Origin: Propioniciclava tarda
Lineage (GTDB): Bacteria > Actinomycetota > Actinomycetes > Propionibacteriales > Propionibacteriaceae
Assembly: GCF_900182665.1 (NCBI RefSeq)
Contig: NZ_FXTL01000009.1
Span: 1-64,000, forward strand
DNA length: 64,000 nucleotides
Direction of reading: 5' to 3'
Of this stretch, positions 1 to 48,177 are shown piece by piece. A program made the position numbers and the translations under genes. The notes under the pieces were generated by a model. The model worked only from the letters and a program-made list of their open reading frames with translations, searched no databases and was not told the DNA's origin. Numbering within the stretch: position 1 is the first letter of the stretch; every line of letters starts with the position of its first letter.

Positions 1-462
1 CCTTCACGCAACCCCAGGGCAGGGGCAGGACGATTCGCCATACCCCATCATCCCAAGAACCCAACCATAAAGGAACTAACGACACACACCACTAGAGTCT
101 CCGATCAGTGCCCCAGGCTACCGCCCCCTTCCCCTCGTTCTGGGGCGAGTCATGGGTATATCCAGCGATGCAGTCGAGCGCCTGGCAACTCAGCGCGACT
201 TGACCCACCTCTGGCGTTGAGGGGCGGACTCCCAGAGTGTCATGGCTAGAGCCTTCGAAACCCGGGAGGCCACCTGCCGAGCTTGCGGTCGTCCCACCGC
301 ACTCGAGCGATCTGAGCGGTCGATCCCAGGGGGTGAGACGGGCGAAGGTTGAACTTTCAACGCTCTGTATCGCCCTGTGACAAGGGGTTTCACCTCGCAT
401 CGGCACCGTCGAGAGGCCGCCGACGTGCGACAGGCGCCGCGGCGTCCAATATCGTTCAACTC
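1..462. other. Non-coding region upstream of the sulfate operon
   Basis: No open frame here resembles a protein I know, and codon patterns look random. The first ~120 bases are visibly less GC-rich than the rest of the window. A perfect 14-base palindrome, GTTGAACTTTCAAC, lies at 348-361 and could be an operator for the downstream sulfate operon, but a single copy is weak evidence. No convincing -10/-35 pair was found. The region probably contains the promoter and 5' untranslated leader of the operon that starts with the small leader peptide at 463. Confidence 0.4.
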
Positions 463-549
463 ATGAGCAGCACCAACACCGTCATCCTCGTGGGCCGCGC
501 CCACGTTGATTTCGGTCGCGTTTTGTCTGCCATGTGTCGCGCGTCCTGA
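463..549 (+). CDS. Putative cysteine/sulfur-responsive leader peptide (28 aa)
   Basis: A 28-codon frame starts ATG AGC AGC and ends CGC GCG TCC TGA. Its C-terminal half reads RAHVDFGRVLSAMC, which fits the HVD-x-x-R-x-x-SA-x-C pattern that I recall from short 'putative leader peptide' entries upstream of sulfur genes in Actinobacteria (family recollection, not searched). The only Cys codon (TGT, 535-537) is four codons before the stop and just upstream of the 539-554 hairpin; a terminator-like stem-loop follows at 567-587. This is the geometry expected for ribosome-mediated attenuation: starved for cysteinyl-tRNA, the ribosome would stall at the TGT and alter downstream folding. The ATG has no obvious Shine-Dalgarno sequence, so a downstream internal ATG (532) is an alternative start. 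The gene precedes the sulfate-binding lipoprotein by 114 bases. Confidence 0.6.
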   Translation: MSSTNTVILVGRAHVDFGRVLSAMCRAS

Positions 550-593
550 CGCGCCCGCACCTTTTCGCCGGGCCATCGTCGCCCGGCTCTTTT
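539..593 (+). terminator. Attenuator: leader hairpin plus intrinsic-terminator-like hairpin
   Basis: Two stem-loops follow the leader peptide. The first is GCGCGT-CCTG-ACGCGC (539-554), overlapping the peptide's stop codon. The second is GCCGGGC-catcgtc-GCCCGGC (567-587), a perfect 7-bp stem followed by TCTTTT (588-593), typical of an intrinsic terminator. A competing pairing is possible between GCCCG at 553-557 and CGGGC at 569-573, which shares bases with both hairpins and could serve as an antiterminator when a stalled ribosome covers the first. The structure is seen directly; the regulatory mechanism is inferred. Confidence 0.6.
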
Positions 594-663
594 CATGTCC
601 AGAGCCAATCGGACGCCGCTGGCCCCTGTCCTGCCCAGCTGTCGCTTCACGAAAGGCCCTTCG

Positions 664-1689
664 ATGAACTCCCGTCGCGTCCGCCCGTCCCGCATCGCCG
701 CGCTCGCACTGGCCTGCGCGATGATGCTGACCGGCTGCGCGGGCGGTGGAGCCAGCGACGCCACGGGCGGCGCGTCGGCGTCCACGAAGCCAGGGACGGC
801 GCTGAACGTGTACGCATTCTCCGTAGCCAAACCCGCTTTCGACGCGCTGGGTCAGGGCTACGCCGCCTCGGGCGGCGGGACGGTCCAGGCGTCGTACGGC
901 CCGTCCGGGGACCAGTCACGCAAGGTCGCGGCCGGCGCCCCGGCCGACGTCGTCGCCTTCTCGCTCGCCCCCGATGTCACCCGCCTCGTGACGGCCGGGC
1001 TGGTGGCGTCCGACTGGAATGCCGGCACCCTGCACGGGACGCCGTTCGGCTCGGTCGTCGTGATGGTGGTCCGGAAGGGCAACCCCAAGGGCATCAAGGA
1101 CTGGCCCGACCTGCTCGCGTCCGGGGTGTCGGTGGTGACGCCGAACCCGCTCAGCTCGGGCTCGGCTCAGTGGAATCTGCTCGCCCCTTACGCGGCGGCG
1201 TCCGACGGCGGCAAGAACCCGGCGGCGGGGCTCGCGTACGTGTCCTCCCTTGTCAAGGACCACATCCACAGCCAGCCGGCGTCCGCGGCGGAGGCGTCCG
1301 AGTCGTTCCGCCAGGGTACCGGCGACGTGCTGCTGAGCTACGAGAACGAGGCCATCGCGGCCATCAAGGCCGGGGAGGCGGTCGAGTACGTGGTGCCGCA
1401 CCAGACCTTCAAGATCGAGAACGCGGTCGCGGTCGTCAGCAAGAGCAGCCATCCGGACGCCGCGAGGGCTTTCGTGGCGTACGTCGAGTCGCCGTCCGGC
1501 CAGGAGGCCGTCGCGAGGGCTGGCTACCGGCCGGCGGACGCGTCCGTGCTGGCGGCCCACCCCGAGTTCGTCCAACCCGCCAAGCTCTGGACCATCGCCG
1601 ACCTCGGCGGCTGGCCCGCCGTCACGGCGTCCCTGTTCGACAAGTCGACCGGCGCGATCACCCAGCTGTACTCGAAGGTGACCGGATGA
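664..1689 (+). CDS. sbp: Sulfate-binding lipoprotein of ABC transporter
   Basis: The extracytoplasmic receptor that delivers sulfate (or thiosulfate) to the CysTWA importer. The protein is 341 residues from the ATG at 664, preceded by a purine-rich AAAGG. The N-terminus has an RR-containing basic stretch, a hydrophobic core and a lipobox LTGC with the lipidated Cys at residue 25. The body contains the typical Sbp features, such as NVYAFSVAKPAF near the start, the GPSGDQSRKV anion-binding loop and NPLSSGSAQWN. An in-frame ATG at 595 exists but would place 23 unrelated residues before the signal peptide and overlap the terminator region, so 664 is preferred. It overlaps the cysT start by an ATGA and is the first structural gene of the sulfate operon. 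Expression is probably set by the leader peptide/attenuator upstream. Confidence 0.9.
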   Translation: MNSRRVRPSRIAALALACAMMLTGCAGGGASDATGGASASTKPGTALNVYAFSVAKPAFDALGQGYAASGGGTVQASYGPSGDQSRKVAAGAPADVVAFSLAPDVTRLVTAGLVASDWNAGTLHGTPFGSVVVMVVRKGNPKGIKDWPDLLASGVSVVTPNPLSSGSAQWNLLAPYAAASDGGKNPAAGLAYVSSLVKDHIHSQPASAAEASESFRQGTGDVLLSYENEAIAAIKAGEAVEYVVPHQTFKIENAVAVVSKSSHPDAARAFVAYVESPSGQEAVARAGYRPADASVLAAHPEFVQPAKLWTIADLGGWPAVTASLFDKSTGAITQLYSKVTG

Positions 1690-2663
1690 CCGCCACCTTG
1701 ACCCGACGTCCGGACGCCGCGGCGAACGTCGCGGCGGCGTCCGGTCGGCCTGGGGCCGGTGGACGCCCCGGCCTGGCGGTCGGGGTGGTCGTGCTGTGGC
1801 TGGGCGTCGTGGTGGCGTTGCCGTTGGCGGCGCTGACGGTCGCGTCGTTCGGGGAGGGCGTGGGTGGGTTCGTCCGGGCCGCCACGAGCCCGGGGGCGGT
1901 CGCAGCCTTGCGGACGACTCTGCTGCTGTCGGCAGCGGTGGCGATCCTGAATGCCGTGGTGGGCACGGTGATCGCCTGGGTGCTGGCCCGCGACGAGTTC
2001 CCCGGCAAGCGGATCGTGGACGCCCTCATCGACCTGCCGTTCGCACTGCCGACGATCGTCACGTCGATCGTGCTGCTGTCGCTCTATGGGCCGAACAGCC
2101 CGATCGGCGTCCGGTTGAACGCGACGCCGCTCGGGGTCGCGGTCGCCCTGGCGTTCGTGACGCTGCCCTTCGTGGTGCGATCCGTGCAGCCGGTGCTCGC
2201 CGAGCTCGACCGCGAGGCCGAGGAAGCGGCGGCGTCGCTGGGGGCGTCCAATCTGGTGACCTTCAAGACGGTGATCTGGCCGGCGATCCGTCCGGCGGTG
2301 TTGGGGGGCGCGGCGTTGGCGTTCGCGCGGTCGGTCGGCGAGTTCGGGTCCGTGGCGCTCATCGGCGGCAACCTCCCCGGACGCACCCAGGTGGCCAGCC
2401 AGTACATCGCCCAGCGCATCGAGATCGGCGACCCCGCTGGGGCTGCGGCCGTGTCGGTGACGCTGCTGGCGATCGCCGCGCTGGTGCTGGTGGCGATCCG
2501 GTACGTGACCCGGGATCGACGGGTTACGACGGTGGCGTCGCCAGACCGCTCAGATTCCGACGCCCTGACTGGTTCGCGGGTCAGGTTGGCAGACGTCAAC
2601 GGCGTTTCGCCGTCAGCGCCGGGCCTGAAGAGTGGCTCCCGGGACTCGGGGGGCGTCGGATGA
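1686..2663 (+). CDS. cysT: Sulfate ABC transporter permease CysT
   Basis: An inner-membrane permease that forms the sulfate channel together with CysW. The 325-residue protein has about six hydrophobic segments and the EAA loop of binding-protein-dependent permeases ([21 protein letters not shown], where EAA and G-x(9)-P-type spacing are visible). The conserved [20 protein letters not shown] segment is typical of CysT. ATGA overlap with both neighbours (1686-1689 and 2660-2663) indicates translational coupling. The last ~50 residues after the final membrane segment are low-complexity and unusual for the family; the DNA beneath them contains two hairpins (CCTGAC...GTCAGG and ACGGCG-TTT-CGCCGT at 2599-2613), so the tail may have arisen by read-through into intergenic repeats. 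Confidence 0.93.
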
Positions 2664-3466
2664 GGCTCTCGACCCCCGCCAGGCTCACCCTGCGCACGAT
2701 CGCGATCGCCTACCTCGCCGTCCTGGTCGTGCTGCCGATCGCCACCGTGCTGACCAAGGCGCTGGGACCGGGCCTCGCGTCCTTCTGGGCCTCGATCACC
2801 ACCCCGGCGGCGATCTCGGCGCTCAACCTGACCCTGCTGATCCTCGCGATCGTCGTGCCGCTGAACGTGATCCTGGGCACGGTCGCCGCGCTGGCCCTCG
2901 TCCGCGGACGCTTCCGCGGCAAGGCGGTCATCCAAACGCTGCTCGACCTGCCGTTCGCCGTGTCGCCGGTGGTCGTGGGTGTGGCCCTGATCTCGCTGTG
3001 GGGCGCGTCCGGCTGGTTCGGCGCCCTCGCCGGTGCGGGCGTCAAGATCGTCTTCGCGGTGCCCGGCATGGTGCTGGCTACGGCATTCGTCACGGTGCCG
3101 TTCGTGGTGCGCGAGCTCGAACCGGTGCTGCGCGAGCTCGGCGACGACCAGGAACAGGCCGCGGCCACCCTCGGCGCGACGCCCTGGCAGACGTTCTGGC
3201 GGATCACCCTGCCGTCGATCCGCTGGGGCCTGCTCTACGGCACCCTGCTCACCATCTCCCGTGGCCTCGGCGAGTACGGCGCGGTGCTGCTGGTCTCGTC
3301 CAACCTGCCCGGCGTGAGCCAGACGCTGACCCTGCTCGTCCATCACCGCTACGTGGACGCCGCCAACGCCTACGGCGCCTACACGGCCGCCACCCTGCTG
3401 ATGGGGCTGTCGCTGGTCACCCTGCTCGCGACCGCCCTGCTCGAACGCTCCCGGAGGACCGCATGA
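2660..3466 (+). CDS. cysW: Sulfate ABC transporter permease CysW
   Basis: The second membrane subunit of the sulfate importer. The 268-residue protein has six predicted membrane segments, the [20 protein letters not shown] segment characteristic of CysW, and an EAA loop ([21 protein letters not shown]) that contacts CysA. The C-terminal part contains [19 protein letters not shown] and the family-typical [10 protein letters not shown] stretch. ATGA overlaps with cysT upstream and cysA downstream show tight coupling. No abnormal features were seen. Confidence 0.95.
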
Positions 3467-4560
3467 TCACCGTCACCGGCGCTACCAAGACCTACGGCGC
3501 CTTCCGCGCCCTCGACGACGTCACGCTCGACATCCCCGCAGGCTCGTTGACCGCCCTGCTCGGCCCGTCCGGCTCGGGCAAGTCGACGCTGCTGCGCGCC
3601 CTCGCCGGACTAGAAACCCTGGACGCCGGCCGCGTCACCATCAACGGCATCGACGTCACCGCTGAGCCGCCGCAGCGCCGCGGCATCGGCTTCGTCTTCC
3701 AGCACTATGCCGCCTTCAAGCACCTCACAGTCCGGGAGAACGTGGCGTTCGGCCTAGCCATCCGCAAGAAGCCCAAGCCCCAGACGGACGCCCGGGTCGC
3801 CGAACTGCTCGAGCTGGTGGGCCTCACCGGCCTCGCCGGACGCTTCCCCGATCAGCTCTCCGGAGGCCAGCGCCAGCGCATGGCCCTGGCCCGCGCGCTC
3901 GCGATCGAGCCGTCCGTGCTCCTACTGGACGAGCCCTTCGGCGCCCTGGACGCCCACGTCCGGGCCGACCTTCGGGCCTGGCTGCGGCGGCTCCACGACG
4001 AGGTTCACGTGACGACCGTGCTGGTGACGCACGACCAGGAGGAGGCCCTGGAGGTCGCCGATCGCGTCGCCGTCCTCAATCACGGACGCCTCGAGCAGGT
4101 CGACGAGCCGCTCGCCGTCTACGACCGGCCAGCCAACGCGTTCGTGATGGGCTTCGTCGGATCAGTCGCCCGCCTCGGCGGCGCGCTGGTGCGTCCGCAC
4201 CGGATCGCGCTGCGGCGGCCGGAGGAGTCCAGCGGCGTCGCTTCGAGCGTCCGTTCGACCGCCTCGGCTTCGGTCGGCTCGGCTTCGACAAGCTCCCCGT
4301 CGACGAGCTCAGGAGCCGGAACCGGGACCGGAACCGCGGAGTTCGGCGAAGCGTCCGTCACGGTCGACGCCACCGTCGACCGGATCGCGCGACTGGGCTC
4401 CGAGACAGTAGTCGAACTGCTGGACGCCGACGGCGTCCGGTTCGTTGCGCGGCTCAACCGTGCCGACAGCGAGAGACTCGGACTGGCGCGCGGTGAGCGC
4501 GTCTCGGCCTCGGCCCCCCTCGACCCTGCGACCGCCGACTTCGGCGACTACGTCATCTGA
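3463..4560 (+). CDS. cysA: Sulfate ABC transporter ATP-binding protein CysA
   Basis: The ATPase that powers sulfate import. The 365-residue protein has Walker [11 protein letters not shown]-loop [14 protein letters not shown], signature [15 protein letters not shown], Walker [12 protein letters not shown] and H-loop LVTHDQEEA. The C-terminal TOBE-like regulatory region (about residues 225-365) carries a Ser/Thr/Gly-rich low-complexity segment at about residues 255-290. That segment corresponds in the DNA to the CTTCGACAAGCTC-type repeat (4282-4313), so the repeat has been inserted in frame between the nucleotide-binding domain and the TOBE strands. It begins by ATGA overlap with cysW; the sulfite reductase gene follows after 13 bases. 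Confidence 0.94.
4282..4313. repeat. CTTCGACAAGCTC repeat inside cysA
   Basis: GCTTCGACAAGCTC is followed after three bases by a variant, GTCGACGAGCTCAGG. It lies in the linker between the ATPase and TOBE parts of CysA and is translated as a Ser/Thr-rich string ([10 protein letters not shown]). One of at least nine loci of this repeat family in the window; the reading frame is preserved. Confidence 0.75.
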
Positions 4561-4573
4561 AGGAAGGACAGCG

Positions 4574-6244
4574 ATGACCACGACGACCAAGAGCAACGGC
4601 CAGTGGGCCGTTGACGGGCGCGCACCGCTCAATCCGAACGAGGTGTTCAAGGCGGCGGACGGGCGTCCACTGGACGTCCGCGAGCGGGTCGAGAAGATCT
4701 ATGCGGTCGAGGGCTTCGACTCGATCCCGGACGAGGACCTGCACGGACGCCTCCGCTGGTGGGGCCTGTACACGCAGCGCAAGCAGGGGATCGACGGCGG
4801 ACGCACCGGCTCGCTGGGCCCGGATGAACTCTCGGATCGCTACTTCATGATGCGCGTGCGCTCGGACGGGGGCGCGCTCACCACCGAGCAGCTGCGCGTC
4901 ATCGGACGCATCAGCGAGGAGTTCGCCCGTAACACCGCGGACGTCTCGGATCGCCAGAACATCCAGCTGCACTGGATCGAAATCGAGGCCGTGCCCGAGA
5001 TCTGGCGCCGCCTCGAAGCTGTCGGGCTGATGACGACCGAGGCCTGCGGCGACACCCCCCGCGTGATCCTCGGCTCGCCGCTCGCGGGCGTGGCCGCGGA
5101 CGAGATCATCGACCCGACGCCGGCGATCCGCGAGATCGTCGACACCTACATCGGCGACCCCGAGTTGGCCAACCTGCCCCGCAAGTTCAAGACGGCGATC
5201 ACGGGGCATCCGAGCCTCGACGTGGTGCACGAGATCAACGACCTCTCGCTGGTCGGCGTGGTGCATCCCGAGCTGGGTCCGGGCTACGACCTCTGGGTCG
5301 GCGGCGGACTCTCGACGGCCCCCCGGCTGGCCGAGCGGCTCGGCGCCTTCGTGCCGCCCGAGCGGGCGGCTGAGGTCTGGTACGGAGTGGTCCGACTGTT
5401 CCGTGACTACGGGTATCGCCGCCTGCGCAACAAGGCGCGGCTCAAGTTCCTGCTGGCCGACTGGGGGACTGCTCGGTTCCGCGAGGTGCTGGAGAGCGAG
5501 TTCCTGGACGCCCCCCTGCCGGATGGTCCCGCGCCCGCGCCGTCCACGTCGCCGGGCGATCACGTCGGTGTCCATGAGCAGAAAGATGGACGCCGTTACG
5601 TCGGCTTGGCGCCGACGGTCGGACGCCTGTCCGGCTTGTCCCTGCTGGCGCTGGCGGACGCGGCGGAGGCGTCCGGATCGAGCAGGCTGCGCCTGACGCC
5701 GCACCAGAAGCTGGTCGTCCTGGATGTCGAGCCCGAGAAGGTGGACGCCCTCCTGGCCGCCGCCGCGCCGCTCGGGCTCACGGCGAACCCGTCGCCGTTT
5801 CGGCGGCACACCATGGCGTGCACCGGCATCGAGTACTGCAAGCTCGCGTTCGTCAACACCAAGGACACCGCGCGCGAGACGATCGCTGAATTGGAGTCGC
5901 GGTTGGCGGGGGTCGAGCTCGACACCCCGATCTCGCTGCACGTGAACGGCTGCCCGAACTCGTGCGCCCGCATCCAGGTCGCCGACATCGGACTCAAGGG
6001 TCAGGTCGCCAAGGCCGCGGACGGCTCGGACGAGTTCGCGTTCCAGGTGCACCTGGGTGGCGGGCTGGCGTCGGACGAGCGCGATGAGGCCGGGCTCGGA
6101 CGCACCGTGCGCGGGCTGAAGGTGCTGGCGTCCGACCTTCCCGACTACGTGGAACGCGTGGTGCGCGGGTTCGTCGCCGAGCGCGAGGCGGGCGAGACGT
6201 TCTCCACGTGGGTCGCCCGAGCGGACGAGGGGGCGTTGCGATGA
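4574..6244 (+). CDS. sir: Ferredoxin-dependent assimilatory sulfite reductase
   Basis: Reduces sulfite to sulfide with six electrons from ferredoxin, using siroheme and a [4Fe-4S] cluster. The 556-residue length matches the monomeric actinobacterial/plant-type enzyme. The four cluster/siroheme cysteines are visible as C416 and C422 (ACTGIEYC) and C460 and C464 (NGCPNSC). The first sulfite/nitrite reductase ferredoxin-like half carries LSDRYFMMRVR and DVSDRQNIQLHW, and TTEACGDTPR contains a Cys at the position that forms a Tyr-Cys crosslink in the Mycobacterium enzyme (recalled). ATG 4574 has a strong AGGAAGGA site. The stop overlaps the start of cysH. It cannot be excluded that nitrite is also a substrate, but the sulfur context makes sulfite the likely one. 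Confidence 0.93.
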   Translation: MTTTTKSNGQWAVDGRAPLNPNEVFKAADGRPLDVRERVEKIYAVEGFDSIPDEDLHGRLRWWGLYTQRKQGIDGGRTGSLGPDELSDRYFMMRVRSDGGALTTEQLRVIGRISEEFARNTADVSDRQNIQLHWIEIEAVPEIWRRLEAVGLMTTEACGDTPRVILGSPLAGVAADEIIDPTPAIREIVDTYIGDPELANLPRKFKTAITGHPSLDVVHEINDLSLVGVVHPELGPGYDLWVGGGLSTAPRLAERLGAFVPPERAAEVWYGVVRLFRDYGYRRLRNKARLKFLLADWGTARFREVLESEFLDAPLPDGPAPAPSTSPGDHVGVHEQKDGRRYVGLAPTVGRLSGLSLLALADAAEASGSSRLRLTPHQKLVVLDVEPEKVDALLAAAAPLGLTANPSPFRRHTMACTGIEYCKLAFVNTKDTARETIAELESRLAGVELDTPISLHVNGCPNSCARIQVADIGLKGQVAKAADGSDEFAFQVHLGGGLASDERDEAGLGRTVRGLKVLASDLPDYVERVVRGFVAEREAGETFSTWVARADEGALR

Positions 6245-7128
6245 GCAACCACGTGCTCCCGGTCCCGGTCCCTGAGCTTGTCGAAGGGGAGCTTGTCGAA
6301 GGGGCTTCGACAAGCTCAGCCAACGGGGGGCTCGTCGGAGGGGAGCCAGCCGCCGATCCGTTCGCGCCGCACGGTCCCGGACGCGCCCGAACGGAGGCCG
6401 ACCTGCACGACCTCGCGGCGCAGGGCGCCGAGCGGTTCGCCGACGCGAACACCGCCGGACGTGACCCCGAAACCGTCGCCCGCGAGGTCCTCGCCTGGGC
6501 GTCCCAGACGTTCGGCACGAGCATCGCCGTCGCCTGCTCCATGGCCGGCGACACGGTCGTGGCGCACCTGGCGGCGCAGGCGTCCCCGGGGGTCGACGTG
6601 CTGTTCCTGCAGACCGGCTACCACTTCCCCGAGACCATCGGCACCCGGGATGCCCTTGCGGCGACGATCGACGCCCACGTCATCGACGTCCTGCCTCGCC
6701 AGAGCGTCGCCGAGCAGGACGCGACGCACGGCCCGAAGCTCCACGACCGCGACCCCAGCCTGTGCTGCGCCCTCCGCAAGACCGAGCCGATCAACCGCGA
6801 GTTGGCGTCCTACGAGGCCTGGATCACCGGCCTGCGCCGCGAGGACTCGCCGCTCCGCGCCGCCACCGCACTCGTCGAATGGGACGCCGTTCACGCCATG
6901 GTGAAGATCAACCCGATCGCCACCTGGACCTTCGATCAGCTCGCCGACTACGCCGGACGCCACGCCGTCCCGATCAACCTGCTGCTCGGCGAGGGCTACC
7001 CGTCGATCGGCTGCGCCCCCTGCACCCGACCCGTCGCGCCCGGCGAAGACCCCCGCGCCGGACGCTGGGCCGGACTCGCCAAGACCGAATGCGGACTCCA
7101 CGTCGCCCCGACCTCCAAGGACGCCTGA
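6241..7128 (+). CDS. cysH: Fe-S type adenylylsulfate (APS) reductase
   Basis: Reduces APS to sulfite with thioredoxin. The 295-residue protein belongs to the PAPS/APS reductase family; it has the cluster cysteines C175-C176 (SLCCALRK) and C258/C261 (GCAPC) plus the catalytic Cys284 in KTECGLH. These mark it as the [4Fe-4S] APS-using form, consistent with the absence of an APS kinase in the operon. Residues about 10-27 ([18 protein letters not shown]) are encoded by the CTTCGACAAGCTC-type repeat and explain why the N-terminus is longer than the usual ~240 residues. The ATG overlaps the sir stop (ATGA), and cysD begins at the last base of this gene's stop codon. Confidence 0.93.
   Translation: MSNHVLPVPVPELVEGELVEGASTSSANGGLVGGEPAADPFAPHGPGRARTEADLHDLAAQGAERFADANTAGRDPETVAREVLAWASQTFGTSIAVACSMAGDTVVAHLAAQASPGVDVLFLQTGYHFPETIGTRDALAATIDAHVIDVLPRQSVAEQDATHGPKLHDRDPSLCCALRKTEPINRELASYEAWITGLRREDSPLRAATALVEWDAVHAMVKINPIATWTFDQLADYAGRHAVPINLLLGEGYPSIGCAPCTRPVAPGEDPRAGRWAGLAKTECGLHVAPTSKDA
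6270..6321. repeat. GAGCTTGTCGAAG/CTTCGACAAGCTC repeat in cysH 5' end
   Basis: Two direct GAGCTTGTCGAAGGGG copies are followed by the inverted copy GGCTTCGACAAGCTCAGCC, so the segment could fold into a hairpin. It is translated in frame as the N-terminal extension of CysH. Confidence 0.8.
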
Positions 7129-8057
7129 TGCCCCCGACCACGACGCAGGCCGCGCCGGCGGCGTCCGCGCTCGATCAACTGACCCTGCTGGAAGCCGAAG
7201 GGATCCACATCATCCGCGAAATCGTCGCGGAGTTGGAGCGGCCGGTGCTGCTGTTCTCCGGCGGCAAAGACTCGGTCGTCATGCTGCACCTGGCGCGTAA
7301 GGCGTTCTGGCCGGGGCCGATCCCGTTCCCGGTGCTGCACGTCGACACCGGCCACAACTTCGCCGAGGTGCTGGCCTACCGCGACGCCGTCGTCGCCGAG
7401 CTCGGGCTGCGGCTGATCGTGGCGCGCGTCCAGGACTACATCGACGACGGACGCCTCCTGGAGCGTCCGGACGGGACGCGTAACCCGCTGCAGACCGTCC
7501 CGCTGCTGGACGCCATCGTCGACGGCCGCTTCGACGCGGTCTTCGGGGGTGGACGCCGCGACGAGGAGAAGGCGCGCGCCAAGGAGCGCGTCGTGAGCCT
7601 GCGCGACGAGTTCGGGCAGTGGGATCCGCGCAACCAGCGTCCTGAGCTGTGGAGCCTCTACAACCCGCGGCATCGTCCGGGTGAGCACGTGCGCGTCTTC
7701 CCGCTCTCGAACTGGACCGAGCTCGACGTCTGGCGCTACATCGAGCGCGAGCGAATCGCCTTGCCAGAGCTGTATTACGCCCACCAGCGCGACGTCTTCC
7801 GCCGCGACGGGATGTGGCTCGCGGCGTCCGAGCTGCTGCCGCTACGTCCGGGAGAGACGGTCGAGCGCAGGGTCGTCCGGTACCGGACCGTCGGCGACAT
7901 CTCGTGCACGGGAGCCGTCGAGTCGGACGCCGCGTCCGTCGCCGACGTCATCGCCGAGGTCGCCGCCGTCCGGATCACCGAGCGCGGCGCGACCCGCGCC
8001 GACGACCGCCTGACCGAGGCCGCCATGGAAGACCGCAAGAAGGAGGGCTACTTCTGA
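7128..8057 (+). CDS. cysD: Sulfate adenylyltransferase subunit 2 (CysD)
   Basis: The catalytic subunit of ATP sulfurylase, forming APS from sulfate and ATP together with the GTPase CysN. The 309-residue protein has the PP-loop LLFSGGKDSVVMLHL, the VLHVDTGHNFAEV motif, the FDAVFGGGRRDEEKARAKER segment and the FPLSNWTELDVWRYI motif that are diagnostic of CysD. The C-terminus DRLTEAAMEDRKKEGYF is typical. TGATG junctions (one-base overlap) at both ends show coupling with cysH and cysN. Confidence 0.96.
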   Translation: MPPTTTQAAPAASALDQLTLLEAEGIHIIREIVAELERPVLLFSGGKDSVVMLHLARKAFWPGPIPFPVLHVDTGHNFAEVLAYRDAVVAELGLRLIVARVQDYIDDGRLLERPDGTRNPLQTVPLLDAIVDGRFDAVFGGGRRDEEKARAKERVVSLRDEFGQWDPRNQRPELWSLYNPRHRPGEHVRVFPLSNWTELDVWRYIERERIALPELYYAHQRDVFRRDGMWLAASELLPLRPGETVERRVVRYRTVGDISCTGAVESDAASVADVIAEVAAVRITERGATRADDRLTEAAMEDRKKEGYF

Positions 8058-9346
8058 TGAGCACCCTGTTGAGGCTGGCCACCGCCGGCTCGGTCGACGA
8101 CGGCAAGTCCACCCTCGTCGGACGGCTCCTGTACGACAGCAAGTCCGTGCTCGCCGACCAGTTGGACGCCGTCCGCCGCGTCAGCGAGGACAAGGGACTC
8201 GGCCACGTCGACCTGGCGCTGCTGACCGACGGACTGCGCGCCGAGCGCGAGCAGGGCATCACGATCGACGTCGCCTACCGGTATTTCGCCACGCCGAGGC
8301 GGGCGTTCATCCTCGCCGACTGCCCGGGGCACGTGCAGTACACGCGCAACACGGTGACCGGCTCATCGACGGCCGACGTGCTCGTGCTGCTGGTCGACGT
8401 GCGCAAGGGCGTCCTGGAGCAGACGCGTCGGCACCTGTCGGTCGGACGCCTGCTCCGCGTCCCGCACGTGATCCTGGCCGTGAACAAGATCGACCTGGTC
8501 GACTACTCGGCCGACGCCTACGAGGCCGTCGCCGAGCAGGCTCGCGCGCTGGCGTCCGGACTGGGGGTCGACCTGCACACGATCCCGGTCTCGGCGCTCG
8601 CGGGCGACAACATCGTGGAGCGGTCGGAGCGGACGCCGTGGTACGCGGGTCCGTCGCTGCTGGAGTTGCTGGAGACGCTGTCGCCCGAGGACGTGGCGGA
8701 CGCCGACTTCCGCTTCCCCGTGCAGCTGACGATCAGGCCGCAGGCGGCGGCGTCCGGGTTCGAGGAGTACCGCGGCTACGCGGGCCGCATCTCCTCGGGG
8801 CGGGTCGCCGTGGGCGACGAGGTGGTGGCGCTGCCGTCCGGACGCCGCACGCGCGTGGTGGGCATCGACCTGTTCGGCGAGGAGCTTCCGGACGCCGTCG
8901 CGCCGTTGTCGGTGACCCTGCGGTTGGCGGATGAGCTCGACCTGGCGCGCGGCGAGGTGCTCGCGTCCGGGACGCCCGTCGAGCCGACTCAGGACTTGGA
9001 CGGAACCGTGGCTTGGCTAGGGATGAGACCGCTGCGGGCGGGCGCGCGTGTGCTGCTCAAGCACGGCACGAAGACGGTTCAGGCGATGGTCCGCGGGGTG
9101 CACGGACGGCTGGATCTCGACACGCTGACGCCGGTTGCGGCCGCTGCGCTGGAGCTCAACGACATCGGACGCGTCGAGCTGCGGCTCGCGTCCCCGATCG
9201 CGGCGGAGGAGTACGCCTCATCCCGGACCGGCGGGTCGTTCCTGCTGATCGACCCGCAGACCGGCGAGAACCTGGCGGCGGGGATGATCCGGGCCACGAA
9301 CGTGGACGCCTTCGCCGCCGGCGACCAGCTGGACTGGGTGATCTGA
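8057..9346 (+). CDS. cysN: Sulfate adenylyltransferase subunit 1, GTPase (CysN)
   Basis: The regulatory GTPase of ATP sulfurylase; GTP hydrolysis drives APS synthesis. The 429-residue EF-Tu-like protein shows G1 [10 protein letters not shown]3 DCPGHVQY, G4 NKID and a G5-like SAL. It lacks the C-terminal APS kinase domain found in the CysNC fusion of mycobacteria, which fits direct use of APS by the Fe-S CysH. It is coupled to cysD by TGATG and abuts the next gene (TGA directly followed by ATG). Confidence 0.96.
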
Positions 9347-10870
9347 ATGCCGCGTCCGCTGGTGATCGCGCTGCACGGGTCCGAGCACCCGGGCGCCGCG
9401 GCGCTGGCGGACGAGCTGGTAACGCTGGTCGGGGCCGAGTTGCCTGGTGTCCAGGTGAGCACCGCGTGGGTGGACGCCCGCGCGCGGGCGTTCTGTGTGG
9501 ACCAACTCCCGGTCCCTGAGCTTGTCGAAGGGGAGCCTGTCGAAGGGCCGATCCGGACCGCGGTTCCTGAGCTTGTCGAAGGGGAGCTTGTCGAAGGGCC
9601 GATCCCGAGCCCGGTCCCTGAGCTTGTCGAAGGGGAGCTTGTCGAAGGGCCGATCCCGACCCCGGTTCCTGAGCCTGTCGAAGGGGAGCTCGTCGAAGGG
9701 CCGATCCCGGTCCCGGTCCCTGAGCTTGTCGAAGGGGAGTTTGCCGAAGGGGAGCCTGTCGGAGGCGACCCTGTAGAAGGGCCGACCGTGGTCCCCGCCT
9801 TCCTGACGGCCGGCTACCACGTGCTCGAGGACCTGCCCGCCCTGGTGGACGGCGGGGTCGTCACCGGCCACGTCGGCCCGGACTTGCTGGACGCCGTCGC
9901 CGATCGGGTAACCGAAGCCGGGGGGCCCGGAGATGCGATTCTGCTTGCCGCAGCGGGATCGAAGCATGCCGAGGCCCGCGCCGAGGTCGAGGCGGCGGCG
10001 TCCGAACTGGGGGTTCGCTTCGGCGTGCCCGTCCGGGTCGGCTACCTCTACGGCGACGGCGCGAGCATCGAGGCCGCCGCCGCAGCACTGATCGCCGATG
10101 GTGCCCGCGACGTCACGGTTGCCACCTACTTCTTGGCCGACGGGCTCTACACCGCCCGATTGCAGGGGCTGCCCGTGGCGCGGCTGAGCCGTCCGATAAG
10201 CGCGCATCCGGTGTTGGTGGACGCGATCGTTCAGCGCTACGCGCACAGTGTCGGGACAACTGATCCCCTCAACGACCCAGCGCCACTGGGTGCTCATCGT
10301 CTCGGTTTTGCGGGAGGTTCAGCACCCAGTCAGCAGGGTTGTGTGCAGCCCGTAACCGCCCAGGGCGCGGAAGAGTTCTTAGCCGGCGTGCCCGCACCGG
10401 AGCCCTACCTGCTCGGCCTGCACCTGAACGGACGCCGCGTCGTGGTCGCGGGCGCGGGTGCGGTCGCCTCGCGGCGCATTCCCCAACTGCTGGACGCCGG
10501 CGCGCGCCTCCACGTCGTCGCGCTCGCCGCGTCCGAGCAGATCAGGACGTGGGCGGCCACCGGACGCCTCACCTGGACGCCTCGCGAGGTGACCACCGCC
10601 GACCTCCAGGGCGCCTGGGTCGTGCTCGCCGCCACGAACGACGCGGACGCCAACGCGCAACTCGCGCAGGCAGCAGAGGCCCAGCGCATCTTCTGCGTCC
10701 GCGCGGATGACGTGGACGCCGGCACCGCCCGGACCCCCGCGACCGGACGCAGCGCGGACCTCCGCGTCGGCGTCCTCTCGGACACACCCAACCCACGACA
10801 CACCGCCGCGGCCCGCACGGTCGCGGTCGAGGCACTGGACGCGTGGGCGTCCGGCAAGGAGCAACCATGA
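9347..10870 (+). CDS. Sirohydrochlorin ferrochelatase / precorrin-2 dehydrogenase fusion with tandem-repeat insert
   Basis: Probably performs the last two siroheme steps: NAD-dependent oxidation of precorrin-2 and Fe insertion. Residues 1-~345 are CbiX/SirB-like, with a first metal-binding His in [11 protein letters not shown] and a second in [15 protein letters not shown]; residues ~350-507 are a CysG-N/Met8-like Rossmann domain ([13 protein letters not shown]). Between the first two strands, at about residues 55-146, lies a striking insert made of five 17-residue units ([17 protein letters not shown]-like), encoded by a 51-bp tandem repeat. The insert falls in a loop, so the fold may survive. 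The gene sits between cysN and the methyltransferase, with an ATGA overlap downstream, and supplies cofactor for the sulfite reductase. Which of the two activities remains functional cannot be told from sequence. Confidence 0.85.
9508..9784 (+). repeat. 51-bp in-frame tandem repeat (five units)
   Basis: The TGAGC core of successive units begins at 9517, 9568, 9619, 9670 and 9721, an exact 51-bp (17-codon) period. Each unit contains two GTCGAAGGG boxes (GAGCTTGTCGAAG family). The last unit decays into GTTTGCCGAAGG and CTGTAGAAGG variants. The unit length keeps the frame, so it behaves like a coding minisatellite. Confidence 0.9.
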
Positions 10871-11628
10871 CTGGCCACGTCACCCTCGTCGGCGGCGGAC
10901 CCGGCGACCCCGACCTCATGACCGTCGGCGGCCTCCGGGCGATCCAGAACGCCGACGTCATCGCCTACGACCGCCTCGCCCCCCTCGAGGTGCTGGCCGA
11001 GGCCCGCCCGGACGCGCTCCTCATCGACGTCGGCAAGGAGCCCCACGGCCGCCAAACCTCCCAGGACGCCATCAACGAGCTCCTCATCACCCACGCCCGC
11101 GCCGGACGCCACGTCGTCCGGTTCAAGGGCGGCGACGGCTACGTCTTCGGACGCGGCGGCGAAGAGGCCCTCGCCTGCGCTGACGCCGGCGTGCCCGTAC
11201 GCGTCATCCCCGGCGTCAGCTCAGCGATCGCCGGACCAGCCCTGGCCGGCATCCCCGTGACGCACCGCTCGCTGACCCAGGGCTTCACCGTGGTTTCGGG
11301 GCACGTCCCGCCGGGTGACGAGCGCAGCACCCTGGACTGGTCGGCGCTCGCGCGCCTCAACACGACCCTGGTGATCCTGATGGGCACGACGCACCTCGCC
11401 GCCATCGCCGCGGCCTTGGTTTCCGACGGCAAGCCCGCCGCCACCACGGCCGCCATCGTCCAGCAGGCCGGACGCCCCGAGCAGCGCGTCCTCCGGGCCA
11501 CGCTCGGCTCGATCGCGGACGCAGCCCGCGCCCACGGCGTCCGGCCGCCGGCGATCGTCATCGTCGGGGACGTCGCCGCCCTGGACGTCACCGCCGCCTC
11601 GCTGGCGGCGTCCGTCACTGCGGCCTGA
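10867..11628 (+). CDS. cobA: Uroporphyrinogen-III C-methyltransferase
   Basis: SAM-dependent methylation of uroporphyrinogen III to precorrin-2, first committed step to siroheme. The 253-residue length and motifs fit SUMT: VTLVGGGPGDPDLMTVGG at the N-terminus, VVRFKGGDGYVFGRGGEE, the VIPGVSSAIAGPALAGIPVTHR substrate loop, and TLVILMGT. It starts with an ATGA overlap with the chelatase/dehydrogenase and closes the sulfate operon; the lipoprotein gene downstream is convergent, 9 bases away. Confidence 0.95.
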   Translation: MTGHVTLVGGGPGDPDLMTVGGLRAIQNADVIAYDRLAPLEVLAEARPDALLIDVGKEPHGRQTSQDAINELLITHARAGRHVVRFKGGDGYVFGRGGEEALACADAGVPVRVIPGVSSAIAGPALAGIPVTHRSLTQGFTVVSGHVPPGDERSTLDWSALARLNTTLVILMGTTHLAAIAAALVSDGKPAATTAAIVQQAGRPEQRVLRATLGSIADAARAHGVRPPAIVIVGDVAALDVTAASLAASVTAA

Positions 11629-27514: not shown

Positions 27515-28704
27515 GTCGAGTCCTGTGCATCAACCCCGGCAGCACGTCGACGAAGATCGCGGTCTTCGACGACGAAGCCGAGGTGTGCGCAGTGACGGTC
27601 CGGCACCCCGCCGAGGAGCTGGCCGCCTTCGGACGCGTCGCCCAGCAGGCGTCCTTCCGGCGCGACCTGATTCTGGACGCCCTCGCCCAAGCGGGCTTCG
27701 GCCTCGACACCCTGGACGCCGTGGTCGGACGCGGCGGGCTGATCCGTCCGGTCGCGGGCGGGACCTACCTCGTGGACGCCGACCTGCTCGACGAGCTGCG
27801 GCACCCCACCGGTGAGCACGCGTCCAACCTGGGCGGCATCTTGGCCGTCGAGTTGGCGGCTGCGGCTCACGCTGCTCCCCGGCCCAACGGACCGGTCCCT
27901 GAGCCTGTCGAAGGGGCGCATGGGGCTTCGACAAGCTCTGCCAGCGGAGAAATCACCAGCACAGGACGTGATGGCGGTCAGGTCCAGGCGTTCATCGTGG
28001 ATCCGGTCGTCGTGGACGAGTTCGAGCCGCTGGCGCGCTACAGCGGGCATCCAGAGATCGAGCGGCGGTCGATCTTCCACGCGTTGAACCAGAAGGCCGT
28101 CGCCCGGCATGACGCGTCCGACAAGGGACGACGCTACGAGGATCTCAACCTCATCGTCGCCCACCTCGGCGGCGGCATCTCGGTGGGCGCGCATCGCCGC
28201 GGACGCGTCATCGACGTGAACAACGCCCTCGACGGTGACGGACCCTTCGCCCCCGAGCGAGCCGGCGGGCTGCCGACGGCGTCCTGGGCGAAGCTGGTGC
28301 TGTCCGGGCGCTACACCCCCGCCGAGACCAGGCGACTGCTGGCCGGGCGCGGCGGGCTCGCGTCCCTGCTCGGCACCAGCGACGCCCGCGAGGCGGAGGC
28401 CCGCGCGACGGCCGGCGACGAGCAGGCCCGCCTGGCCCTCGACGCCATGGCCTACCAGGTCGCCAAGGAGATCGGGTCCGCCGCGGCGGTGCTCGCCGGT
28501 GACGTGGACGCCATCGTCCTCACCGGCGGGCTCGCCCACGACCACGCCTTCGTCGCCGCCATCACGGCCTGCGTCTCCTTCATCGCCGACGTTGTCACCT
28601 ACCCCGGCGAGGACGAGATGCCCGCCCTGCGCGACGGAGCCCTCCGGGTGCTGCGCGGTATCGAACCCGCCAAGCTCTTCGCGGACGAGGTGCTACTCCG
28701 ATGA
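27511..28704 (+). CDS. buk: Butyrate kinase family protein (second copy)
   Basis: A 397-residue paralogue with the canonical CINPGSTSTKIAVF, VVGRGGLIRPVAGGTY, HASNLGGIL, AHLGGGISVGAH and LTGGLAHD motifs. At about residues 128-145 a CTTCGAC-type repeat (27896-27945) adds VPEPVEGAHGASTSSASG between the GGI helix and QAFIVDPVVVDEF, making it some 30 residues longer than typical. It follows ptb by ATGA overlap and overlaps the P-loop ATPase gene by 4 bases. With Ptb it would yield one ATP per acyl-CoA. Confidence 0.9.
   Translation: MSRVLCINPGSTSTKIAVFDDEAEVCAVTVRHPAEELAAFGRVAQQASFRRDLILDALAQAGFGLDTLDAVVGRGGLIRPVAGGTYLVDADLLDELRHPTGEHASNLGGILAVELAAAAHAAPRPNGPVPEPVEGAHGASTSSASGEITSTGRDGGQVQAFIVDPVVVDEFEPLARYSGHPEIERRSIFHALNQKAVARHDASDKGRRYEDLNLIVAHLGGGISVGAHRRGRVIDVNNALDGDGPFAPERAGGLPTASWAKLVLSGRYTPAETRRLLAGRGGLASLLGTSDAREAEARATAGDEQARLALDAMAYQVAKEIGSAAAVLAGDVDAIVLTGGLAHDHAFVAAITACVSFIADVVTYPGEDEMPALRDGALRVLRGIEPAKLFADEVLLR
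27896..27945. repeat. GAGCCTGTCGAAG/CTTCGACAAGCTC inverted pair inside buk
   Basis: CCCTGAGCCTGTCGAAGGGG followed by GGGGCTTCGACAAGCTCTGCC can fold as a hairpin. Translated in frame as an added surface loop of the second butyrate kinase. Confidence 0.75.
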
Positions 28705-47249: not shown

Positions 47250-48177
47250 GTTGCCCGAGGTTGAGGGGCTGCGCCGATTCCTGGCGGGCGAGTTGGTCGG
47301 CGCGACGGTCGCGCGGGCGGAGTTGGCGGCCTTCAGTGCTCTCAAGGCGTTCGCGATGCCGCTGTCGTCGCTGCTCGGCCAGGAGGTCGAGCGGGTCGAA
47401 CGGCGCGGCAAGTTCATCGGCATCGGCGTCGACGGCGCCTGGCTCGCGTTCCACCTTGCCAGGGCCGGTTGGTTGCGCTGGTACGACACGGTGCCGGTCG
47501 CGCCGGCGCGTCCGGGCAAGGGTCCTATCGCGCTGCGGATGGGGTTCGACCCTTCGACAGGCTCAGGGCAGGCTCCTGAAGGCTTGGACGAGGGGGCACC
47601 GTTGGCTGAGCCTGTCGAAGCCTCCCCTATCGGCTTCGACCTGACCGAGGCGGGCACCCAGAAGAAGCTCGCGATCTACGTCGTCCCGCGGCTCGAGGAT
47701 GTGCCCGGAATCGCCACGCTGGGCGCTGATCCGCTGGCGTCCGACTTCACGGTCGACGACTTCGGGGAGGTCCTGGGCGAGCACGGCCGGACGCAACTGA
47801 AGGGCGTCCTGCGCGATCAGCGCATCTTCGCGGGCATCGGCAACGCGTACTCGGACGAGATCCTGCAGGCGGCGGGGCTGAGCCCGTTCAAACTGGCCGG
47901 CACGCTGGCGTCCGAGGACGTTGACCGGCTCTACAGCGCGATGCGCGACGAGTTGGCGGGGGCGATCGAGCGCGCGTCCGGGCTGCCGCCCAAGGAGTTG
48001 AAGGACGACAAGCGCAACAGCATGCGGGTCCACGGCAAGAAGGGGCAGCCGTGCCCGACGTGCGGCACGACGGTCGCCGAGGTGTCGTTCGCGGACTCGT
48101 TCCTCAACTACTGCCCCACCTGCCAGACGGGCGGCAAGATCCTGGCCGATCGGCGCATGTCGAAGCTGCTGAAGTAG
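47242..48177 (+). CDS. Fpg/Nei-family DNA glycosylase
   Basis: Removes oxidised bases. The start codon is TTG: the sequence TTG CCT GAG gives MPELPEVEG, whose Pro2 (nucleophile after Met removal) and Glu3 are essential. The 311-residue protein has the H2TH region (GVLRDQRIFAGIGNAYSDEI) and a C-terminal zinc finger CPTC-x16-CPTC (about residues 270-295). A CTTCGAC-type repeat (47551-47626) inserts DPSTGSGQAP...PLAEPVEASP at about residues 103-128. Overlaps aat by eight bases. Confidence 0.93.
   Translation: MPELPEVEGLRRFLAGELVGATVARAELAAFSALKAFAMPLSSLLGQEVERVERRGKFIGIGVDGAWLAFHLARAGWLRWYDTVPVAPARPGKGPIALRMGFDPSTGSGQAPEGLDEGAPLAEPVEASPIGFDLTEAGTQKKLAIYVVPRLEDVPGIATLGADPLASDFTVDDFGEVLGEHGRTQLKGVLRDQRIFAGIGNAYSDEILQAAGLSPFKLAGTLASEDVDRLYSAMRDELAGAIERASGLPPKELKDDKRNSMRVHGKKGQPCPTCGTTVAEVSFADSFLNYCPTCQTGGKILADRRMSKLLK
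47551..47626. repeat. Two repeat copies inside the Fpg/Nei gene
   Basis: CCTTCGACAGGCTCAGG and, 38 bases on, GGCTGAGCCTGTCGAAGCC, in opposite orientation, form a potential hairpin. Both arms are read in frame. Confidence 0.75.

Follow-up and report, generated by a model that had tools for sequence, protein, structure and literature searches.

Attenuator leaders of enterobacteria are translated from a Shine-Dalgarno sequence, and their peptide is otherwise free to vary. A different kind of leader occurs in mycobacteria, for which the work of Canestrari in 2020 (Mol Microbiol) reportedly described polycysteine-encoding leaderless short ORFs. According to Shell in 2015 (PLoS Genet, PMC4633059), mycobacterial polycysteine leaders are leaderless short ORFs with Cys near the end and several per genome; the leader from Propioniciclava tarda that we describe here also has its Cys near the end and is one of several in its genome, and it is predicted to be leaderless. 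The mycobacterial leaders lie upstream of cysteine and sulfur genes, and the same is true of the P. tarda leader, which precedes sbp-cysTWA-sir-cysH-cysDN. The trp, his and leu attenuators of enterobacteria, as presented in sections of PMC1183508, follow a logic of alternating 1-2-3-4 segments, and a comparable set of segments is present here.

The window, by which we mean the whole analysed stretch of 64,000 nucleotides, contains a leader ORF of 28 codons plus stop at 463..549 (plus strand, as are the leader elements and genes of the window given below), with ATG at 463, TGA at 547-549 and the translation MSSTNTVILVGRAHVDFGRVLSAMCRAS. The sole Cys codon, TGT at 535-537 (Cys25), lies within C-R-A-S-stop and is the proposed sensing codon, 11 codons past His14 of a conserved motif, His14 to Cys25 (HVDFGRVLSAMC, 502..537), which was delimited by leader alignment and codon counts. 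A hairpin of six Watson-Crick pairs extends over the stop codon (1:2, GCGCGU-CCUG-ACGCGC, 539..554) and is followed by segment 2 (GCCCG, 553..557, located by comparison of leaders), segment 3 (GCCGGGC, 567..573) and segment 4 (GCCCGGC, 581..587). Segments 3 and 4 are the 5' and 3' arms of a terminator-like stem with seven G-C pairs and a loop of 7, and the U-tract TCTTTT stands at 588..593. The first structural gene, sbp, has a Shine-Dalgarno-like GAAAGG at 651..656, seen by eye and outside the hairpins. An earlier sequence-only reading of this DNA had proposed a 28-codon leader with a single Cys near the stop, hairpins at 539-554 and 567-593, and a shared GCCCG able to pair with the terminator arm. 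All three proposals are borne out, the GCCCG at 553-557 being able to pair with CGGGC at 569-573. The pairings 2:3 and 3:4 are mutually exclusive because both use segment 3.

It is fairly likely that the region is a ribosome-mediated attenuator sensing charged tRNA-Cys before the sulfate operon, and low cysteine probably switches on the sulfate-assimilation genes through the leader and its competing hairpins. The steps that we infer, from a leaderless start through UGU stalling and termination to a cysteine response, would run as follows. Transcription would begin at the leader ATG, as suggested by the −10 box, and the first ribosome would load on the 5' AUG. With Cys-tRNA plentiful, the ribosome would pass the UGU at 535-537, reach the stop and cover segment 2, upon which the 3:4 terminator hairpin would form and transcription would halt near 593. 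With Cys-tRNA scarce, the ribosome would pause at the UGU and cover segment 1, and segment 2, left free, would capture segment 3 and let RNA polymerase continue into the sulfate genes. As a type, cysteine-linked ribosome-mediated attenuation has good support. The leader ORF with its Cys25 codon stands before genes leading from sulfate to sulfide, the pairings 2:3 and 3:4 are exclusive, and the window has a terminator-like hairpin with U-tract (567-593); these elements, their conservation and their linkage to sulfur genes are present in the DNA itself.

The peptide is conserved among relatives. Using the leader as a protein query, matches were obtained in 36 of 57 genomes, its own included, at the lenient threshold of E up to 1. 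With a profile built from 21 leaders, 70 of 198 genomes of the family matched at E up to 0.01, as did 24 of 396 drawn from the whole phylum at E up to 1e-4, its own again included in both. R12, H14, D16, R19 and C25 are invariant in the alignment of the 21 leaders, and the consensus is RxH[VIL]D[LF]xRxxSxxC. The HVD..R..SA.C pattern that the sequence-only reading had given was right, and the alignment of relatives that it had called for found a conserved peptide, the lack of which it had named as speaking against attenuation. Four leaders are encoded in the P. tarda genome, before the sulfate cluster, cysK (contig C2), an oxidoreductase-like gene on contig C4 and a DUF4395 gene (C9:86612). Codons were read in 121 distinct leaders, that is, 130 records minus 9 with identical DNA; the weak own-genome matches L035-L037 and L120-L125 were left out of the leader readings. 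Ser at +8 uses AGY codons in 64 of these leaders and TCN codons in 40, and six different codons serve for Arg at +5, which indicates that selection acts at the amino-acid level. Folding also revealed a hairpin, P1, inside codons 10-14 (GUGGGC-CGC-GCCCAC, 490..504), which is more stable than most synonymous resamples: a fraction of 0.033 of these equalled or surpassed it in the window, and 0.000-0.215 over nine leaders. The peptide conservation was not put down to P1, as it covers only about codons 10-14 of Propioniciclava-type leaders and not D16, R19 or S22.

The codon used for the conserved Cys is also nearly invariant. In leader searches that were codon-blind, Cys at +11 from the motif His was TGT in 120 of the 120 distinct leaders with Cys there (121 examined). 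A further 12 loci had TGT at +11 in 11 of the 11 with Cys there, L176 being without Cys and in a long frame, and TGT was found in 50 of 51 places with Cys at +11 among the last 64, which may repeat earlier sequences (L302 is on the same contig as the named L069). This gives TGT at 181 of 182 +11 Cys places in total, and the single TGC, in L343, belongs to a long open frame without the motif. The named leader L041 has TGT at +11 and TGC at +9, and in L033 (HIDLLLVAGCCCR) the Cys codons are TGC, TGC and TGT, of which only the last sits at +11. Background ORFs had 35 TGT against 287 TGC; these ORFs were picked by GC3 above 0.85, which depresses TGT, and three controls internal to the 121 leaders are independent of that choice: Cys at +4 (12 TGC against 1 TGT), Asp (88 GAC against 33 GAT) and His (91 CAC against 17 CAT). 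Kinship of the leaders inflates any p-value for TGT; the neighbouring codons nevertheless drift. Gly at +4 shows a weaker second codon preference, GGT in 25 of 50 cases among these 121 leaders against 8% in the GC3-selected background.

Neither the spacing nor the codon at +11 is absolute. Among the last 64 places, 13 have another codon at +11, and four of these are long frames without Cys (L311, L336, L337, L344). In L309 and L340 TGT is one codon off, a register shift of the ungapped reading. An extra residue before the Cys places it at +12 in L297, L313, L307, L312 and L321, and also in L043, and there TGT is not strict: of the first five, L307, L312 and L321 have TGT and L297 and L313 only TGC. 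L289 has TGT at +13 and +15, and L285, which lacks a Cys at +11, has TGC at +7 and TGT at +9. Among the 121 leaders read first, L205 carries Gly at +11. A literature search whose scope lay outside the text of the 2020 mycobacterial study returned no report of a TGT rule, and what appears to be new here is TGT at +11 despite a TGC preference. A reason in RNA structure was judged unlikely, as the flanking bases vary among 114 distinct sequences. The P. tarda genome has one tRNA-Cys, with anticodon GCA, among 45 tRNA matches, and UGU must therefore be decoded by wobble. Since this one tRNA-Cys reads both UGU and UGC, selective charging cannot favour UGU; in the account of it given in PMC1183508, selective charging as a reason for codon choice works between isoacceptors.

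The near-invariance of UGU with a single tRNA-Cys(GCA) would point to decoding rate or peptide-ribosome coupling in the sensing. In such a sensor RxHVDxxRxxS in the exit tunnel would make the UGU an arrest site at low Cys-tRNA, or upon another sulfur signal. We put forward tentatively, as less likely than not, that the conserved RxH[VIL]D[LF]xRxxS primes the ribosome and that the wobble-read UGU at 11 codons sets the stalling threshold. This would be compatible with either a transcriptional or a translational output. It is consistent with the conservation of residues beyond Cys despite synonymous variation, and with TGT at +11 and the single Cys codon from +8 onward in 85 of 121 leaders. It is weakened by the profile searching, which partly imposes the fixed motif-to-Cys spacing, by P1, which accounts for part of the nucleotide-level conservation in the nearest relatives, and by the exceptions noted above, L297 and L313 with only TGC at +12 and L285 without Cys at +11.

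An attenuator that senses charged tRNA-Cys in the manner proposed would have its transcript start at the leader itself. A −10 box TATCGT (450..455) lies 7 nt 5' of the ATG, a possible −35 hexamer GCGACA (427..432), read by eye, lies 17 nt 5' of the −10 box, and no Shine-Dalgarno sequence was seen before the ATG at 463. The leader mRNA is thus predicted to be leaderless, starting at about 463. A transcription start downstream of 593 had been named in the sequence-only reading as evidence that would count against it, and the start at 463 predicted from the position of the −10 box lies well before that point. A promoter scan of this region of the window, run at a higher threshold than the −35 call by eye, reported no promoter-like site. 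Of the 121 leaders, 45 carry TAnnnT 5-8 nt 5' of an ATG or GTG that is in frame (6-7 nt in 43; 270 in-frame starts tried), compared with 0 of 131 control starts that are out of frame in these stretches, and all four leaders of the P. tarda genome are among the 45; no box of this leaderless type was seen in the remaining 76 of 121 leaders. Inverted-repeat-like words were noticed by eye 5' of the leader ATG in L013 (GAGACGGTCGTCTCG) and L018 (CCCACATGGTGGG), and also in L016 and L030, and may be candidate transcription-factor operators.

The RNA structure past the stop codon was compared among 50 leaders. The fold of 463-595 is far stabler than its shuffles (z −4.98, 0 of 200 equally stable); the terminator pattern alone is weak evidence, with 2 in 1.7 kb against a shuffle mean of 0.7 (sd 0.9), and the recurrence of peptide and segments among relatives is the stronger test. 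The order GCCCG/CGGGC/GCCCG occurs just past the stop in 16 of the 50 leaders tested, which come from three genera of the family and include the window. In a second family of the order Propionibacteriales the same order of segments is kept with exchanged words, seven leaders having GCGCC, GGCGC and GCGCC and one having CGCGC, GCGCG and CGCGC; some of these segment-exchanged leaders are close relatives. The 2-3-4 arrangement is present in 24 of 50 leaders in all, with per-leader shuffle fractions of 0.003-0.06. By the exact-match test 26 of 50 leaders have no consistent 2-3-4 (two with five-base words elsewhere, 12 with four-base words and 12 with none), and the cysK and DUF4395 leaders of P. 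tarda are among these. The 1:2 hairpin across the stop codon recurs in relatives with different sequences. The joint exchange of three segments is the best evidence supporting 2:3 and 3:4 as real alternatives.

Folding was also done with modelled ribosomes, as had been suggested in the earlier reading. On a transcript of 463-580 the 2:3 pairing was 0.90 with the ribosome at Cys25 (0.89 with tighter cover) and 0.00 with the ribosome at the stop. Once segment 4 was present, 3:4 reached 0.88-1.00 in each of the seven states folded as far as nucleotide 595. With no ribosome on 463-580, 2:3 pairing was 0.81, hardly different from the stalled state, and in transcripts extended to 664 the 3:4 pairing was 0.36-0.98, in a pattern that does not match the attenuation model. 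As 3:4 dominates in every state up to 595, antitermination would be only kinetic, if it occurs at all, and the modelled folding is evidence against a simple equilibrium model.

Translational control is the main rival to the transcriptional form of the attenuator. A stalled ribosome would then open a structure that hinders initiation at the first gene, the blocker being either 3:4 or segment 3 paired with 620-625. Segment 620-625 (TGGCCC) can indeed pair with segment 3, as GGGCCA with UGGCCC in the window and GGGCACC with GGUGCCC in L141. Combined over 17 leaders that are not independent of each other, this downstream pairing reaches p 1e-4, but p is 0.24 in the window. Translational attenuation has been reported for mycobacteria, including the polycysteine leaders of M. 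smegmatis, in parts of PMC9031893 and PMC13236596. Of the 24 leaders that show the 2-3-4 arrangement, only the window, L003 and L004 have at least five T among the ten bases past the stem, and the other 21 have fewer. As the U-tract is mostly absent in relatives, transcriptional control appears likelier than translational control only for the window, L003 and L004. In the window translational control is opposed by the T-run and by the Shine-Dalgarno-like 651-656, which lies outside the hairpins and is unpaired at 0.38-0.48 in all seven states modelled. We consider translational attenuation unlikely on balance, at roughly one chance in a handful.

The genes downstream link the proposed attenuator to sulfur. 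The cluster after the leader consists of ten genes, sbp-cysT-cysW-cysA-sir-cysH-cysD-cysN and two siroheme-type genes, and 7 of the 9 later starts overlap the preceding stop. The first, sbp, encodes a sulfate ABC transporter substrate-binding protein (664..1689; TIGR00971, 156.9 bits, cut-off 155.5) and is followed by cysT (1686-2663), cysW (2660-3466) and cysA (3463-4560). The sulfite/nitrite reductase-type gene sir (4574..6244) matches NCBIfam sulfite and nitrite reductase models, all below their cut-offs, and its role is inferred from the neighbouring genes. Then come cysH (6241-7128), cysD (7128-8057), cysN (8057-9346), a gene for a protein with a CysG N-terminal-type domain (siroheme; 9347-10870) and one for a uroporphyrinogen-III C-methyltransferase (siroheme; 10867-11628). 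A repeat, CCTGAGCTTGTCGAAGG, has 8 matches with up to 1 mismatch in the window and none in 100 shuffles, at 6271-6287, at 9515-9735 (five copies, 51 nt apart), at 27898 and at 47551; within cysH and the CysG-type gene it is in the reading frame and gives PELVEGE-like stretches.

Across the 121 distinct leaders, pattern matching placed a sulfite-reductase-type N-terminus at most 600 nt after the leader in 62. Other leaders, from translations read over part of their neighbours, precede cysK, TauE-type exporters, cysteine dioxygenase, ThiS-family proteins and Sulf_transp-type transporters, as well as dicarboxylate-type symporters and flavin reductases; a Pfam check on ten non-sir downstream genes gave matches for nine, in two cases short of the gathering score. 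Two of the P. tarda leaders precede genes that are not obvious cysteine-synthesis genes: L032 (G000:C4:182470-182553, minus strand), before a gene read as a 2-oxoacid:ferredoxin oxidoreductase that matches Pfam POR only below cut-off, and L033 (on G000), before the DUF4395 gene. The leader does not accompany every sir gene. Among named sir loci with at least 1 kb upstream, 3 of 78 carry one no farther than 700 nt away (P. soli L038, an uncultured Propionibacteriaceae L043 and Propionibacterium australiense L069), one more, L041, has a leader at −1276, and the others, mostly from Arthrobacter, Knoellia, Oerskovia and similar, have none within 700 nt by either pattern. The cysteine-linked attenuation put forward in the sequence-only reading is supported by the linkage to sulfur genes together with the conserved alternative pairing. 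That the small ORF encodes a trans-acting peptide, the hairpins being incidental, would fit the conserved peptide but is highly improbable given its position before sulfur genes in many genomes, its several copies per genome and the conserved non-coding segment after the stop; equally improbable is that the ORF is a coincidence and the region a plain untranslated leader or a riboswitch for a metabolite, which would fit the stable structure, as conservation is at the peptide level, the −10 box fits a leaderless ORF and an Rfam search of the window found no family at gathering score.

The P. tarda leader belongs, as a variant, with the leaderless cysteine leaders already known. Its peptide had only two matches in NCBIfam, of 19 residues each and both below cut-off: NF042936, the Ms4527A family Cys-rich leader peptide (21.8 bits, cut-off 45), and NF042934, a putative leader peptide (16.1 bits, cut-off 27). 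At E up to 1, NF042936 and NF042934 match 18 and 16 of the 21 aligned leaders, respectively; NF042936 matches all four leaders of P. tarda and NF042934 three of the four, the leader on C4 exceeding the NF042934 cut-off of 27 with 27.9 bits. Leaders such as HVDFKRVCSCCCLP, in genomes inferred to be mycobacterial, share the motif. Mycobacterial leaders have a run of Cys codons, in contrast to the one Cys codon of the P. tarda leader, and PMC13236596 speaks of translation attenuation for them, whereas a terminator-like hairpin with a T-run is present in the window. The uORFC-8-2 motif before cysS in Rhodobacterales, as covered in an excerpt of PMC8632094, is alike in that Cys-codon attenuation with an intrinsic terminator is proposed, but differs in its phylum and gene and in its tandem Cys codons, with UGC dominant, where P. 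tarda has one UGU. The trp, his and leu attenuators of enterobacteria likewise have several regulatory codons, the leaders treated in the relevant pages of PMC1183508 having two or more, and the single Cys codon here counts against the proposed attenuator. Cysteine-linked leaders are thereby extended to the Propionibacteriaceae in a single-codon, terminator-bearing design, and one leader type is found ahead of many sulfur genes in several families of actinobacteria. The TGT rule falls outside selective charging as that process is described in the same part of PMC1183508, and it lends itself to testing how the choice of codon and the nascent peptide determine how sensitive an attenuator is.
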